A DNA stretch of 45,866 bases. Source: a virus. The stretch lies in the IMG/VR virus record IMGVR_UViG_3300004770_000032, positions 1-45,866 of that record, one strand, 5' to 3'. The translations under genes and the position numbers were made by a program. The notes beneath the pieces were generated by a model, which did not search any database, had not been told where the DNA came from, and saw only the letters and a program-made list of their open reading frames with translations. Positions 6,240 through 12,476 of this stretch are shown piece by piece (position 1 is the stretch's first letter; each line of letters starts with the position of its first letter).

Positions 6240-6505
6240 TGTTAGAGAAAACAATCGAAGCAGCATTAGGAAAAAAGGTTAAAACTTTAGGTGGTAAATA
6301 TGAAAAGTTTACGTCCCCAAGTAGACACTCAGTGCCTGATCGCATAATAACTTTAGCTGAAGGTCGTATTATCTTTGTTGAATGTAAAGCTCCAGGCAAA
6401 GTTGCTACTGATGCACAAGCGAGAGACCATGACCTTAGACGAGCATTAGGTTGTGATGTAAGAGTAATATCCACAATGGAGCAGATTGATGTTTTCCCGA
6501 ATTGA
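6239..6505 (+). CDS. VRR-NUC domain nuclease
   Basis: An 88-residue stand-alone VRR-NUC domain. The active-site residues are P33-D34 (SVPDR) and E48-x-K50 (FVECKAPG), followed by a glutamine and helix (DAQARDHDLRRALG). VRR-NUC enzymes cut branched or flap DNA, and minimal versions like this are common in phages beside a SNF2-type helicase. The start overlaps the polymerase stop, and the gene itself overlaps the helicase start, so all three are translationally linked. A role in joint-molecule or fork resolution is inferred. Confidence 0.9.
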   Translation: MLEKTIEAALGKKVKTLGGKYEKFTSPSRHSVPDRIITLAEGRIIFVECKAPGKVATDAQARDHDLRRALGCDVRVISTMEQIDVFPN

Positions 6506-7817
6506 TTTACACGATTATCAAAATAGAGCTGTAGAATTTATAAAAGATAAAAAGCGTTCATTTTTGATTTTAGAGATGGGATTAGGTAAAACAGTATCCA
6601 CATTAACCGCCATTGCTGATTTAATTAAACAGCGTTTAATTAAGAAAGTATTAGTCATAGCCCCATTGCGAGTAGCTAATTCCGTGTGGTTGCAAGAATC
6701 ACGCAAATGGGAACATACCAAAAACCTTTCAATACATAGGGTATTAGGCAGCCAAAGTGATCGCCTTAAGGTTCTTCATCATGATAGTGAAGTATATGTA
6801 ATTAACCAAGAAAACGTGCAATGGTTAGTTAATCATTATGGTAAAAAATGGCCTTTTGATATGGTTATAGTTGACGAAGCAAGCTCTTTCAAGAACCCTA
6901 GCAGTCAACGCTTCAAAGCCATTAAAAAAGTATTACCTTTTGTTGAATATATTGTGCTGCTTACCGGAACACCTTCACCAAATGGCTTACTGGATTTGTG
7001 GTCACAATGCTATTTAGTTGATTATGGTCATTCATTAGGTCGCACAATGACAGCCTACAAACAGCGTTTTTTTGAGCAAGGTTACATGGGGTATTCATTT
7101 ACACCACGAAAAGGCTCACAGGCTCAAATTGAAAAATTGATGCAACTCTACACCTTGTCTATGCAATCTGCTGATTATCTAGAGCTTCCTGATCGCATAG
7201 ATTTAATTGAAGAAATAGAATTAGCCCCTAAAGTATTAGCTAATTACAAACTATTTGAACGTAATTTGTTTATAGAGTTTGAAGGTCATCAAATAGAAGC
7301 AATTAACGCGGCTGTATTAGCTAATAAATTATTGCAATATTCAAACGGTGCTATGTATGTTGATATATATAAAAACTGGGCCGAACTACACACATCTAAA
7401 CTTGATGCCCTAGCTGAACTAATAGAACAAAACGATGAAAACATTCTTGTAGCATACAACTATAGAAGTGATCTTGAACGCCTTCAAGCACGTTTCCCCG
7501 ATGCTGTAGTTATGGATAAAAATGATGACACTATAACCTCATGGGATAAAGGCGATATTAAACTTCTTTTAGCACATCCTCGAAGTGCAGGGCATGGCCT
7601 TAACCTTCAACATGGTGGGCAACTTGTTATTTGGTTTTCACTTTGCTGGTCACTGGACTATTACCAACAATTTAACGCCAGATTATATAGGCAAGGTCAG
7701 ACCAAACCAGTACGCATAGTCCATCTGGTTGTAAAAAACACTATAGACGAACGAGTTATGAAGGTTATTAATGAAAAAGACGTTACCCAAAACAGATTAA
7801 TTACAGCTCTTAGATAA
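6489..7817 (+). CDS. SNF2/DEAD-like superfamily-2 helicase
   Basis: A 442-residue two-lobed helicase. Visible motifs are I (EMGLGKT near residue 30-35), II (VDEAS), III (LLTGTPSPNG), V (GHGLNLQHGG) and VI (QFNARLYRQGQ), the pattern of phage SNF2-related ATPases. It would translocate on duplex DNA and remodel forks or recombination intermediates with the adjacent VRR-NUC nuclease. A TTG at 6486 directly precedes ATG 6489; the ATG is preferred because GGAG lies seven bases before it. It is the last gene of the replication cassette, and a promoter for the candidate ncRNA begins 18 bases after its stop. Confidence 0.9.
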   Translation: MFSRIDLHDYQNRAVEFIKDKKRSFLILEMGLGKTVSTLTAIADLIKQRLIKKVLVIAPLRVANSVWLQESRKWEHTKNLSIHRVLGSQSDRLKVLHHDSEVYVINQENVQWLVNHYGKKWPFDMVIVDEASSFKNPSSQRFKAIKKVLPFVEYIVLLTGTPSPNGLLDLWSQCYLVDYGHSLGRTMTAYKQRFFEQGYMGYSFTPRKGSQAQIEKLMQLYTLSMQSADYLELPDRIDLIEEIELAPKVLANYKLFERNLFIEFEGHQIEAINAAVLANKLLQYSNGAMYVDIYKNWAELHTSKLDALAELIEQNDENILVAYNYRSDLERLQARFPDAVVMDKNDDTITSWDKGDIKLLLAHPRSAGHGLNLQHGGQLVIWFSLCWSLDYYQQFNARLYRQGQTKPVRIVHLVVKNTIDERVMKVINEKDVTQNRLITALR

Positions 7818-7835
7818 TTAAATGTAAATTAGAGC

Positions 7836-7864
7836 TTGACACTTTATTTTTAAATCTTTACTAT
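7836..7864 (+). promoter_or_regulatory. Near-consensus promoter of the candidate ncRNA
   Basis: TTGACA (7836-7841) and TACTAT (7859-7864) are 17 bases apart, among the best sigma-70 matches in the window. No coding region follows for more than 400 bases, so it would mainly drive the structured RNA, starting near 7871. Confidence 0.65.
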
Positions 7865-7870
7865 AGACAC

Positions 7871-8274
7871 AACTTAAAAAGTTAACGCATCCAGAGCGTA
7901 GAATCTGGGCAGGCCGGAACAGACACCGACAGACCTAGCAGAAAAAACTTTTTAATATAAGAAAACAGGCGGTTGTCGGTGATTGGCCTTAATAAAAACC
8001 GAGAGTGCAGGACTTTGGCCTTATATAAAGTTTTAAAATCACAGAGTGGCTGCACTTATGATTGCTTATAAAGCAATGCTGGATAACATAACCAGCCTTT
8101 TTAGTGATACATCAAGTTTCCTAGACAGAATTTCTTGGTGTATCAGTAAAAAAATGAGGCGGGTGTCCGCGTAGACCCGAAAAAGATACGTGTCAGTTGT
8201 TACATTTGGTAACTTTAAATAAGCCTCAATGTTAGACCCCATCAGCCTATTTAGCCTAGTAGGTTGATGGTTTT
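7871..8274 (+). ncRNA. Candidate structured non-coding RNA, about 400 nt
   Basis: No gene is supported in 7818-8301, but complementary arms are dense. They include AAAAAGTT 7876-7883 with AACTTTTT 7946-7953 enclosing CCAGA/TCTGG (7891-7895/7904-7908); AGTGCAG 8004-8010 with CTGCACT 8050-8056 enclosing ACTTT/AAAGT; ATTGCTT/AAGCAAT (8061-8077, three-base loop); GCTGG/CCAGC (8078-8096); TGATACA/TGTATCA (8105-8145); TGAGGC 8155-8160 with GCCTCA 8223-8228 enclosing CGGGT/ACCCG and GTTAC/GTAAC; and a terminator stem at 8239-8270. A near-consensus promoter lies just upstream. Large ornate RNAs such as GOLLD and ROOL occur in phages, but no signature identifies it as one of them. The GCTGG/CCAGC hairpin followed by CTTTTT could end a shorter form near 8102. 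Function unknown. Confidence 0.65.
8239..8274 (+). terminator. Intrinsic terminator of the candidate ncRNA
   Basis: CCATCA-g-CCTA (8239-8249) pairs with TAGG-t-TGATGG (8260-8270) and is followed by TTTTAT. It ends the structured region 28 bases before the ATG of the next gene. Confidence 0.72.
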
Positions 8275-8301
8275 ATAATAATAAATAATTGGAGATAGAT
8301 T

Positions 8302-8553
8302 ATGAATACAACCTCAGTAAAAATATTGGCTCTATTAGTAGCTTTTGGATCAGGCATATTTGCCCACAACTTTTATTTTAAACCTAGCAAAGATTTGGTT
8401 AAGCTTGAAGTTACTAAATCAGGACAGTTCGTCATCAGGGATGGTCATATTTACGAGCTGAACGAGCTTGAAGTGGCTGCAAAACCTACTTCATTACCAG
8501 ATTATAGTGAAGGTGCTTCTCAGTCATACCATTTACCAACAGGACGTAAATAA
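8302..8553 (+). CDS. Small membrane-anchored or exported protein
   Basis: An 83-residue protein whose residues 1-23 form one hydrophobic segment (KILALLVAFGSGIFAHNFYF) after a short polar start, either a signal anchor or an uncleaved signal. The rest is soluble and would face the periplasm if N-in. No family is recognised. A GGAG site lies eight bases before the ATG. Its last base is the first base of the next gene (TAATG), so the two are translationally coupled. Similar small inner-membrane proteins in phages can block superinfection, but nothing here proves that. Confidence 0.65.
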   Translation: MNTTSVKILALLVAFGSGIFAHNFYFKPSKDLVKLEVTKSGQFVIRDGHIYELNELEVAAKPTSLPDYSEGASQSYHLPTGRK

Positions 8554-8765
8554 TGAATACTCCAAATTTAAGTTTATTAAGAGAACGCCTGCAACAAGAA
8601 ATACAAACCTTGCAATCCGGTGAGACTAGCATTAATCAGGGTAAGGTGGTGTCGAATCTTGCTAATGCCGTGATTAATAGTGTATTAGCTGAAATCATGG
8701 CGACTAAGGCATTACCTGATAACCCAAACAAGGCTATTGAACATGACTACATTGATATTGAGTAA
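8553..8765 (+). CDS. Small hypothetical protein, helical
   Basis: A 70-residue, probably all-helical protein (RERLQQEIQTLQSGE then KVVSNLANAVINSVLAEIMA). No domain is recognised. It starts on the stop codon of the membrane protein and its tail overlaps the repeat-protein gene in another frame. The pattern resembles small phage proteins co-expressed with early accessory genes. Coding is supported by tight coupling with neighbours. Confidence 0.55.
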   Translation: MNTPNLSLLRERLQQEIQTLQSGETSINQGKVVSNLANAVINSVLAEIMATKALPDNPNKAIEHDYIDIE

Positions 8766-9114
8766 AAAGGAAAAGATTAAGGCGGATAGGGATAGATATC
8801 ACGCAGCTAATTCTGAAAAGATTAAGGCTAGCATGGCTAGATATCAAGCAGCTAATTCTGAAAAGATTAAGGCGTATATGGCTAGATATCAAGCAGCTAA
8901 TTCTGAAAAGATTAAGGCGTATAAGGCTAAATACATAGCAGCTAATCCTTCATCTAGTATTTTTAACAACATACAAAAAAAATACAACGTACCAAGATCA
9001 GAACTAAACAATCTAATCCCACAAGACCTGATTGACGTTAAGATTTTACAATTAACCCTGCACCGATTAATCAAAGAAAAAGGATGGAATAATGTGCCAG
9101 CACGAATGGGATAA
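8743..9114 (+). CDS. Repeat protein with four 15-residue units
   Basis: About 123 residues. Four tandem units of the form EKIKAxxARYxAANS occupy residues about 10-69 and are followed by a distinct C-terminal region (QKKYNVPRSELNNLIPQDL...LHRLIKEKG). Lysine/arginine-rich 'AYRAANPEKI'-type repeats are often found ahead of HNH or related nuclease domains in phage and bacterial proteins, so it may be a DNA-binding fragment of such a protein; no nuclease residues remain visible. The ATG at 8743 lies inside the previous gene; TTG at 8737 or 8758 is an alternative. The units are near-identical in DNA, a sign of recent duplication. Confidence 0.6.
   Translation: MTTLILSKKEKIKADRDRYHAANSEKIKASMARYQAANSEKIKAYMARYQAANSEKIKAYKAKYIAANPSSSIFNNIQKKYNVPRSELNNLIPQDLIDVKILQLTLHRLIKEKGWNNVPARMG
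8770..8949 (+). repeat. Four tandem 45-bp coding repeats
   Basis: Units begin at 8770, 8815, 8860 and 8905, each starting GAAAAGATTAAGGC and ending GCAGCTAATTC or similar. The two central units differ at only a few bases. They keep the reading frame, so copy number can change without breaking the protein. Confidence 0.85.
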
Positions 9115-10339: not shown

Positions 10340-10487
10340 ATTTAAGGATGGTTACTACTTTTCCTGCCAACTATTAAAACTAGGAATTACGCAAAAAGAA
10401 ATTGAAGATCAAGCGAATAATCCTTTTGATTTTGATGATTTTGATAGAGGAATGCTTGCTAGATTGATGGAGTGCGATGATGAGTAG
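10329..10487 (+). CDS. Very small acidic protein
   Basis: A 52-residue protein (MTTKFKDGYYFSCQLLKLG...DFDRGMLARLMECDDE). ATG 10329 is preferred over an in-frame ATG at 10263 because GAGAGG lies six bases upstream and the start overlaps the previous stop, as elsewhere in this operon. No family is recognised; the acidic C-terminus could be a protein-contact surface. Confidence 0.5.
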   Translation: MTTKFKDGYYFSCQLLKLGITQKEIEDQANNPFDFDDFDRGMLARLMECDDE

Positions 10488-10884
10488 TCCAGAAAGAGAG
10501 TTACTAAAAAATGCTTCGGATATATTAAAACATCTTAATTATGACGATGACCTTATAGCAAATGGAGTTATATGGAAAATTGAAAAACTACTCGCTCAAC
10601 CTGAGTTAGAAAATAATATAGTGTGTTGGGGTAGTTTTGATTTAGGTGGTAAATGTGTAGGAACACATGATACAAGACGTTTAGCGGCACAAATTCAAGG
10701 AGGTAATGAGATATTGCCACTTTACCTTAAGCAAGAACCTAGAGAGCCGTTGAGTGATGAAGAACTAAGCACACTTGCAACCGATGATCTTTATGACTGC
10801 ACATACACAACAACGGTATTTGCTTATAAAGAGTATGCAAGAAAAATAGAAAAAGCATATGGTATTGGAGTAGATGATGAGTAA
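10480..10884 (+). CDS. LLAQPE/REPLSDE family phage protein, full-length copy
   Basis: A 134-residue member of a modular family repeated four times in this operon. An N-terminal helical module (SSPERELLKNA ... IEKLLAQPE) is joined to a middle segment and a C-terminal module (EPREPLSDEELSTLA...ARKIEKAYGIG). Proteins of this build are common in phages of Gammaproteobacteria, where they are of unknown role; many carry a DUF551-like or similar middle part. Start 10480 has GGAG seven bases upstream; an ATG three bases earlier is less well spaced. It overlaps both neighbours by a few bases. Confidence 0.6.
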   Translation: MSSPERELLKNASDILKHLNYDDDLIANGVIWKIEKLLAQPELENNIVCWGSFDLGGKCVGTHDTRRLAAQIQGGNEILPLYLKQEPREPLSDEELSTLATDDLYDCTYTTTVFAYKEYARKIEKAYGIGVDDE

Positions 10885-11119
10885 AGAAAGAGAGTTGTTG
10901 AGAAGGGTGATTGATGGAGGGGGTTCTTACAATGCTATGGAGTCGCTGGATAAAGAAATTGAAGAGTTTCTCGCCCAACCTGAGCATTTATCTCCGATTG
11001 AAAAACACGAAACCTTTTTAAAAAGTTTAATAGAAAATAATGGTGAGGGATTAAAAGAATTAAAAGCATTTGACATAGAAACATACAATAAACTAAAAGA
11101 GGTTTTTGGAAATGAATAA
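10877..11119 (+). CDS. LLAQPE family protein, short copy without REPLSDE module
   Basis: An 80-residue paralogue: SKERELLRRVIDGG ... IEEFLAQPEH matches the N-terminal module of its neighbours, but the C-terminal REPLSDE...GIG part is replaced by an unrelated helical tail (EKHETFLKSLIENNGEGLKELKAF). ATG 10877 has GGAG six bases upstream and overlaps the preceding stop. This looks like a module swap or partial duplication rather than a broken gene, since the frame is open and coupled on both sides. Confidence 0.55.
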   Translation: MSKERELLRRVIDGGGSYNAMESLDKEIEEFLAQPEHLSPIEKHETFLKSLIENNGEGLKELKAFDIETYNKLKEVFGNE

Positions 11120-11489
11120 AGAAAGAGAGTTGTTGAAAAAGATTTGGGAAGATTTAGATGGTGATAGAGATAATTACAATTTATTATGCGAGGAGATAGA
11201 AGAACTACTCGCCCAACCTGAACAGACTGAGCAAGAGCCTGTTGGTATTGTAACAACGATTGGAGGCTACCCAGACGACTCTGAGCATACAGTTAAATTG
11301 GCATGTAGACATGGAGACATAAAGAACGGGGATTTGCTCTACACATCACCACAAAAGCGTGAGCCTTTGAGTGAAGATAAACTTGATGTGCTTGCTGAGG
11401 CTCGTATAACAGATGAGGGTTTTGCAGGATATTATGCTGGTTTTAGAGATGCAGAAAAGCATCACGGTATAACTGGAGCAACAAAATGA
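11112..11489 (+). CDS. LLAQPE/REPLSDE family phage protein
   Basis: A 125-residue paralogue: NKERELLKKIWEDL ... IEELLAQPEQ, then a middle segment ending in GDLLYTSPQ and the C-terminal module KREPLSEDKLDVLAEARI ... DAEKHHGI. The 'LLYTSP.KREPLS' joint is characteristic of many phage hypothetical proteins. The start ATG overlaps the previous stop (ATGAATAA), and the end overlaps the hexapeptide-repeat gene by four bases. Role unknown. Confidence 0.62.
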   Translation: MNKERELLKKIWEDLDGDRDNYNLLCEEIEELLAQPEQTEQEPVGIVTTIGGYPDDSEHTVKLACRHGDIKNGDLLYTSPQKREPLSEDKLDVLAEARITDEGFAGYYAGFRDAEKHHGITGATK

Positions 11490-12157
11490 CTGAATTTTTT
11501 GATTTTAAAGATGGGAATGGATTAGTTCCAGCACACCGCCATATTAATGGCGGTGGATGGGTAGCTGAAAGTGTAACGGTAGAAAAATCAGCTTTTATTG
11601 ACATCAATGCTCGTGTGTCTGGCGAAGCTCGTGTGTCTGGCGAAGCTCGTGTGTATGGCGATGCTCGTGTGTCTGGCAATGCTCGTGTGTCTGGCGAAGC
11701 TCGTGTGTATGGCAATGCTTGGGTGTATGGCGATGCTCGTGTGTCTGGCAATGCTCATGTGTCTGGCGAAGCTCGTGTGTATGGCAATGCTTGGGTGTAT
11801 GGCGAAGCTCGTGTGTATGGCGATGCTCGTGTGTCTGGCAATGCTCATGTGTCTGGCGAAGCTCGTGTGTATGGCAATGCTTGGGTGTATGGCGAAGCTC
11901 GTGTGTATGGCGAAGCTCGTGTGTATGGCAATGCTCAGGTGTATGGCTATGCTCATGTGGAAAAATCACCCATTAACATAATAGGTATTGAATACAACAT
12001 AACAATCTATACAGACTTAGCACAAGTGGGTTGCAAGTTATACAGTATTGAAAAATGGAAAAAGTTTACTGCTGATGAAGTAGCTGAAATGGATGGCGAA
12101 AAAGCAATTAACTTTTTCCCTAAATTGTTGGCAATATTTTCAGCACTAGGACTATAG
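11486..12157 (+). CDS. Hexapeptide-repeat left-handed beta-helix protein
   Basis: A 223-residue protein in three parts. Residues 1-41 (EFFDFKDGNGLVPAHRHINGG then GWVAESVTVEKSAFID) are a lead-in seen in other phage hexapeptide proteins. Residues about 42-155 hold 19 uninterrupted hexapeptides of the type A-[RHWQ]-V-[SY]-G-[EDN]. Val at every third position and Gly two residues on would stack as a left-handed beta helix. A tail of about 68 residues (IGIEYNITIYTDLAQ ... FFPKLLAIFSALGL) follows. Hexapeptide proteins are often trimeric acyltransferases, but no catalytic histidine loop is seen, so a structural or binding role is as likely. It sits between two LLAQPE paralogues, overlapping the upstream one. 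Confidence 0.75.
   Translation: MTEFFDFKDGNGLVPAHRHINGGGWVAESVTVEKSAFIDINARVSGEARVSGEARVYGDARVSGNARVSGEARVYGNAWVYGDARVSGNAHVSGEARVYGNAWVYGEARVYGDARVSGNAHVSGEARVYGNAWVYGEARVYGEARVYGNAQVYGYAHVEKSPINIIGIEYNITIYTDLAQVGCKLYSIEKWKKFTADEVAEMDGEKAINFFPKLLAIFSALGL
11609..11950 (+). repeat. 19 tandem 18-bp repeats coding for hexapeptides
   Basis: The unit is GCTCGTGTGTCTGGCGAA with small variations. Units 4-7 form a block of four, and units 8-12 and 13-17 are near-copies of each other as five-unit, 90-bp blocks, so expansion occurred at two levels. Long stretches are open in other frames on both strands because the unit has no stop codon; those are not genes. Confidence 0.95.
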
Positions 12158-12167
12158 GAGAAACACA

Positions 12168-12476
12168 ATGAATAAAGACCTACTCGCCCAACCTGAGCAT
12201 ATTGCTGATGTTGGGAATATGGTTAAGCAAGAGCTATTTAAACCCGACTGGGCTAATTACCGTCAGGGAGTAGAGGATTCAAAACGAGAGCCTTTGAGTG
12301 ATGAAAGACTGCGAGATTTAAGTAATTCAATTCATGCTCACCCTGATTTTGAAAATGTCTCAGTATGGCAAGTTTTTTATATAGCTAGATTAATCGAAAA
12401 AGCACGCGGTATTGGAGATGGGGAAGAAAACTTTCATGAACGATTAAAGGAAGATTTGGAGAGATTAGATGAGTAG
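12168..12476 (+). CDS. LLAQPE/REPLSDE family protein with shortened N-terminus
   Basis: A 102-residue paralogue beginning MNKDLLAQPEH: the ERELLK helix present in the other copies is missing, as if deleted between MNK and LLAQPE. The C-terminal module is complete (SKREPLSDERLRDLSNSI ... ARLIEKARGIG) and is followed by an extra acidic helix. The ATG has AGGAG upstream. The gene downstream starts inside its last codons. Confidence 0.6.
   Translation: MNKDLLAQPEHIADVGNMVKQELFKPDWANYRQGVEDSKREPLSDERLRDLSNSIHAHPDFENVSVWQVFYIARLIEKARGIGDGEENFHERLKEDLERLDE

Follow-up and report, generated by a model that had tools for sequence, protein, structure and literature searches.

Organization of the locus

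The window analysed here was the whole 45,866-nucleotide stretch of viral DNA held in IMG/VR record IMGVR_UViG_3300004770_000032. Within it, a SNF2-type helicase gene (6486–7817) and an accessory operon (from 8302) enclosed a 484-base stretch, in which the following features were recognized, together with the first gene behind it:

7836–7864, + strand: sigma70-type promoter, near-consensus TTGACA-17-TACTAT (promoter scan)
7883–7942, + strand: M1, the 5′ module, two abutting hairpins, candidate put-like antiterminator element (covariance model R1, pair counts)
7891–7908, + strand: M1 hairpin 1, CCAGA/UCUGG with the 8-nt loop (G)CGUAGAA (R1, pair counts)
7909–7939, + strand: M1 hairpin 2, GC-AGG/CCU-a-GC and CGG/CCG (R1, pair counts)
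7943–8097, + strand: M2, an insert found only in the window (absent from relatives L046 and L049)
8098–8151, + strand: M3, a long hairpin (z -5.25)
8155–8228, + strand: M4, with closing stem 8155–8160/8223–8228, inner stem 8161–8164/8175–8178 and predicted pseudoknot 8168–8173/8187–8192 (compensatory changes in L046 and L049)
8239–8274, + strand: intrinsic terminator, hairpin of 13 pairs (8239–8270) followed by UUUU (terminator scan, z -7.0)
8302–8553, + strand: first gene after the leader, 83 aa, with a small hydrophobic N-terminus (no Pfam family)

The initial annotation had described this stretch as a structured RNA of about 400 nt with a near-consensus promoter and a clean intrinsic terminator, devoid of any supported gene and of any signature that would place it. 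The promoter and the terminator were both recovered by the scans, and the open reading frames listed inside the stretch were short (42 to 58 aa) and ran in both directions, with no supported gene among them. No Rfam family, tRNA or tmRNA was detected in the stretch at Rfam gathering or permissive thresholds: the Rfam 15 covariance models, GOLLD and ROOL included, gave no match at gathering score, and the permissive search returned weak matches only (best E 1.1). The fold was also better than expected by chance, with a folding energy of -124.1 kcal/mol for 7868–8280 versus -91.7 (sd 5.5) for shuffled sequences (z -5.85; 0 of 100 shuffles as good). Taken module by module, this signal came from M3 and the terminator, while M1, M2 and M4 singly were not unusual by energy (z -0.9 to -1.3).

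The product of the first gene had homologues in L003 and L041 (32 and 30% identity) and in L046 (80%). Three repeat features were observed further along the window: (i) 45-nt direct repeats (SEKIKAYMARYQAAN units) at 8770–8949 in the open reading frame 8737–9114; (ii) 18 near-identical direct repeats with an 18-nt period (VSGEARVYGDA type) at 11533–12013 in the gene 11486–12157, whose product is probably a beta-helix protein; and (iii) LLAQPE and REPLSDE motifs (repeat families D3 and D4) common to several small operon proteins within 10477–12476, with homologues in L012, L021 and L046, these proteins forming a family multiplied within the operon. Elsewhere in the window, a Cro-like protein (2430–2618, - strand; P22_Cro, E 1.8e-17) was encoded divergently from the replication operon, which points to a phage that is, or once was, temperate.

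Modular leaders in relatives

The sequence comparison was applied to 43 helicase relatives from IMG/VR. The closest, L002/L049 (helicase 92% identical), shared the promoter, M1, M3 and the 3′ domain with the window, with the middle missing. L046 kept the order M1–M3–M4–terminator behind an unrelated YqaJ/DEAD-helicase cassette, and L050 contained M3–M4–terminator without M1, having a small basic open reading frame in the place of M1. L012 and L021 (helicase 60%), as well as the unrelated L048, harbored M1 but neither M3 nor M4, and in L012 and L021 it lay in a short leader with no terminator ahead of the first gene. In L003, L004 and L041, a homologous promoter, with homology extending over the first approximately 12 transcribed bases (CACAACTTAA), was followed by a short leader and then by a homologue of the gene next to the leader of the window.

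Modules were thus gained and lost independently, and the stretch is a string of modules rather than one ornate RNA; the simplest reading would be that an old promoter and its first gene came to be separated by the insertion of structured modules. Since, in relatives devoid of the RNA, the same promoter directly feeds a homologue of the gene that follows here, the stretch is to be regarded as a leader: a real, conserved and structured one without an Rfam family. Of the initial proposal, the structured RNA itself was retained, in the form of a modular 5′ leader and not of one large GOLLD- or ROOL-like molecule, while its argument that the stretch was not simply a leader for the next gene was probably wrong, given the direct supply of that gene in L003, L004 and L041, the short leaders with M1 and the coming and going of modules.

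These arrangements also bear on whether the stretch specifies a discrete non-coding RNA of some 400 nt (approximately 7871 to 8274, ending at 8270) that would act in trans on host or phage targets. The strong promoter and the terminator that frame the stretch, the overall folding z of -5.85 and the M1–M3–M4–terminator order kept in L046 and L049 would all suit such an RNA, but M1 stood alone in the short leaders of L012 and L021 with no terminator before the gene, the middle was missing in relatives, and the homologous promoter of L003, L004 and L041 fed the next gene directly, so we regard a trans-acting RNA as rather unlikely.

Further elements were found at or near corresponding places in the relatives. 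The open reading frame of L050 (L050:8526–8624), 32 aa and basic (MSTNKMFKNVVTRSGCSRKVAWRFAKAVRKAA), lay between the promoter and a terminator-like hairpin; it had no significant relative in the phage collection and may encode either a leader peptide or a small, basic protein for antitermination. Behind the L049 terminator, a second structured stretch (L049:11358–11540) displayed a long closing stem, AAAGATGGTTATTG..CAGTAACCATCTTT, crossed by AAGGCAGGT/ACCTGCCTT pairing. Another conserved leader RNA occupied the same post-helicase place in L010 (6378–6540), L011, L013, L014, L015, L023, L038 and L040 (also L083–L090); it was composed of ACCCTATCGG..GGGGAT..CCGAGAATACAA..TTGTATTTACGAT and then a hairpin with matching differences between lineages, had no match in Rfam or the phage database, and is possibly an alternative element for the job of M1.

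Structure and covariation of M1

The covariance model R1 was trained on three other phage genomes, L012, L051 (elsewhere L021) and L048, with the window excluded. R1 found M1 in the window (41.1 bits, E 1.5e-8) and also in L046 (E 2.4e-9) and L002 (E 3.5e-8). M1 measured 60–63 nt, and zero bases separated its two hairpins. Hairpin 1 had a 5-bp stem and an invariant CGUMGAA loop, and in L012, L021 and L048 both sides changed in all five pairs (C-G/A-U, A-U/C-G, A-U/U-A, C-G/G-C and A-U/C-G), three distinct hairpin 1 sequences entering the comparison. Hairpin 2 displayed one bulged base low in its 3′ arm, with c/AYAGA as its asymmetric internal loop and AAC...A at the apex; its sequence was nearly invariant, so that its pairs draw no support from covariation. 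Hairpin 1 is conserved by shape and hairpin 2 by sequence. All cells (100%) of the M1 structure were paired versus 17–49% in controls with one arm slid, cell counts that overstate the independent events because the copies came from few lineages.

Folded without constraints, the L048 copy formed hairpin 2 and not hairpin 1. An H-type pseudoknot drawn by eye for M1 was dropped in favor of the two-hairpin form, which covaried and which the window copy adopted unaided. The support for M1 was that of covariation and not of folding energy. Covariation among relatives had been put forward initially as a check on the RNA, and it was present here in hairpin 1 as well as in M4 and the terminator as compensatory changes (see below).

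The searches were extended beyond the relatives. Blastn against the phage and plasmid collections gave just short chance matches, and no further copy of M1 was found in GTDB genomes, INPHARED or PLSDB, so the M1 family as seen here is small. M1 was absent from the named isolates with the nearest helicase (Pseudoalteromonas, Vibrio and Marinobacter phages). Several candidates were discarded: (i) six GC-rich matches to a hairpin 2 pattern in GTDB, lacking the hairpin 1 loop and judged to be chance; (ii) one 24-bit R1 match, antisense to a peptidase gene, among 369 genomes of one class, likewise judged to be chance; and (iii) pattern matches in L047, L064 and L065.

Modules M2, M3 and M4 and the terminator

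M2 enclosed both of the GGCCTT elements (7986–7991 and 8018–8023) previously singled out as recurring in different stem contexts, and these were not conserved, M2 being absent from L046 and L049. One M2 segment could pair in part with hairpin 2, and M2 was therefore considered as a switch that masks this hairpin; the idea was set aside, because 21 of 1000 shuffles did as well and the complementarity was unusual to a moderate degree only. An apparent pseudoknot was also observed in M2, with a AAAACUUU../AAAGUUUU closing stem crossed by AGUGCAG/CUGCACU.

M3 carried an apical 18-nt sequence, GUUUCCUAGACAGAAUUU (8116–8133), identical in the window, L046, L049 and L050, and was perhaps an RNase III-type processing hairpin. 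A second terminator had been suspected near 8102, giving short and long forms; it was not recovered by the terminator scan, the U run concerned formed the 5′ arm of M3 and also occurred in L046 and L049, which have no such hairpin before it, and the two forms were left unsupported.

M4 and the terminator showed compensatory changes. The M4 closing stem was UGAGGC/GCCUCA in the window, AGUGCGGC/GCCGCACU in L049 and CCUAAGGC/GCCUUGGG in L046, and the inner stem was GGGU/ACCC, CGGU/ACCG and GGAG/CUCC, respectively; the predicted pseudoknot had 6 bp in the window and 4 bp in L046, the choice of pairs in L049 being ambiguous. The terminator displayed a compensatory U-A to C-G change in L046; in the window, it had four U only and overlapped TATAAT, so a weak promoter of its own is possible for the operon.

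The leader could be another kind of cis-regulatory element, in which M4, adjoining the terminator, would be a riboswitch or attenuator, M3 would be processed by RNase III, and M1 would stabilise the 5′ end or control translation. The compact predicted pseudoknot of M4, with its compensatory changes and its place directly before the terminator, and the fixed loop of the long M3 hairpin are in keeping with such roles, but no competing pairing able to open the terminator was apparent, no Rfam riboswitch matched, and M4 was absent in L012, L021 and L048, where M1 stayed near promoters of other operons; we consider this explanation rather unlikely.

Gene settings of M1

M1 lay approximately 5–20 nt past a predicted sigma70 start in six genomes, distributed over three gene settings: (i) after the helicase of a DUF2800/Enc34-type replication cassette (the window, L002/L049, L012 and L021); (ii) after a quite different YqaJ/DEAD-helicase cassette (L046); and (iii) just past a leftward promoter that lies behind a CI-type repressor gene (L048). 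The immunity region of L048 contained the CI-type repressor gene (Phage_CI_repr, E 6e-5) and a divergent Cro-like gene, and its order was leftward promoter, M1, terminator GCTCCGTAGCGATACGGGGC-TTTTTT, small genes, ERF and exonuclease, M1 occupying the putL/nutL place of lambdoid phages. No second copy of M1 was found in the window or in L048, with one M1 per genome.

A co-directional intrinsic terminator was located downstream of M1 in five of the six genomes (the window, L046, L012, L021 and L048), the hairpin of the L049 terminator falling below the scan criteria. L012 and L021 carried an identical strong terminator, GCCCCAGCAATGGGGC-A-TTTTTTTT, inside the operon and between genes of the same direction, 0.45 kb (L012) and 1.35 kb (L021) past M1. 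The association between M1 and terminators is only suggestive, because the five of six loci with M1 stand against terminators at 5 of 17 M1-less loci, one of them directly behind the helicase; L041 had an operon terminator and no M1.

The 33-kb L048 record and the window shared a single protein match, a weak Cro-like one (E 6e-4), and M1 thus moves with no protein that is evidently its partner, in agreement with an RNA whose target is the host polymerase. Lambda nut sites consist of boxA and boxB and work with N protein. M1 as the RNA half of such a two-part system, a nut-like site for a phage antitermination protein or host Nus factors, would agree with the position of M1, which is that of nut sites, with the sequence-fixed internal and apical loops of hairpin 2, which could be protein-bound, and with a boxA-resembling CGCUCUUU just after M1 in L048; however, no boxA-like string was kept in the other M1 leaders on inspection, and the weak Cro-like match was all that the window and L048 shared. 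Lacking a conserved boxA and a candidate N protein, M1 is unlikely to be a nut-like site.

Proposed RNA-only antitermination

M1 may instead be an RNA antiterminator of the put kind, with a leader that is processed or regulated, and then a terminator, behind it, an explanation which rests on position, architecture and covariation and to which we give about an even chance. The promoter at 7836–7864 would produce an operon leader RNA with M1 as its first folded part; M1 would act in cis like HK022 put RNA, folding while leaving RNA polymerase, and might bind the host elongation complex via hairpin 2 and its internal loop; the polymerase would then pass the terminator at 8239–8270 and continue into the accessory operon (from 8302). 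The modules, the M1 covariation, the constant place behind predicted promoters in three settings and the co-directional terminators downstream were shown by computation, whereas transcription, readthrough and the binding of polymerase are inferred. An RNA kept where proteins are not, adjoining early promoters and lying ahead of terminators, has the profile expected of an antiterminator directed at the host polymerase; the counterpoint is L050, which retained the terminator without M1.

More tentatively, and with somewhat less than an even chance, M1 would found a second, sequence-unrelated family of RNA-only processive antiterminators, borne by uncultivated phages that do not belong to the HK022 group and exchanged between phages with hardly any common proteins. 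HK022 put is the well-studied phage RNA that alone makes RNA polymerase ignore terminators. If M1 acts likewise, RNA-only antitermination would have arisen or spread more than once, and M1 would provide an independent set of bases for testing how such an RNA holds polymerase, as well as a compact part for building terminator-resistant transcription.

Comparison with known systems

GOLLD, ROOL and other large phage RNAs resembled the stretch as large non-coding stretches in phage genomes; the window differed in having a modular leader rather than one conserved fold, and no Rfam match. Lambda nut sites shared with M1 the position after early promoters and ahead of terminators, but the M1 leaders had no conserved boxA (the boxA-like string being found only in L048) and no shared N candidate. 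Bacillus EAR and Tn916 canT, the latter a conjugative-transposon element of approximately 450 nt (PMC11658703), are like M1 leader RNAs proposed to alter the elongation complex, but no Rfam match of any kind was obtained in the window.

The HK022 sites putL and putR, approximately 70 nt each, form two stem-loops downstream of PL and PR, and U68 is left unpaired near the base of stem II; they bind the beta′ zinc-binding domain and need no phage protein for their action (PMC9378689). No similarity in sequence between M1 and putL/putR was found, and R1 found nothing in the HK022 stretch L058. HK022 has two sites versus one M1 per genome, and stem I of put is long, bulged and in part triplex, in contrast to the short, simple 5-bp stem of M1 hairpin 1. 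The likenesses were as follows: (i) two stem-loops with at most one base between them in about 60–70 nt (60–63 nt and none between in M1); (ii) a place that follows an early promoter and precedes terminators, the promoters and early timing of M1 being predicted; (iii) an unpaired base low in stem II and in M1 hairpin 2; and (iv) no companion phage protein apparent for M1. M1 thus shares the plan and the place of put and not its sequence, and it may work like put, although it is not called put here.
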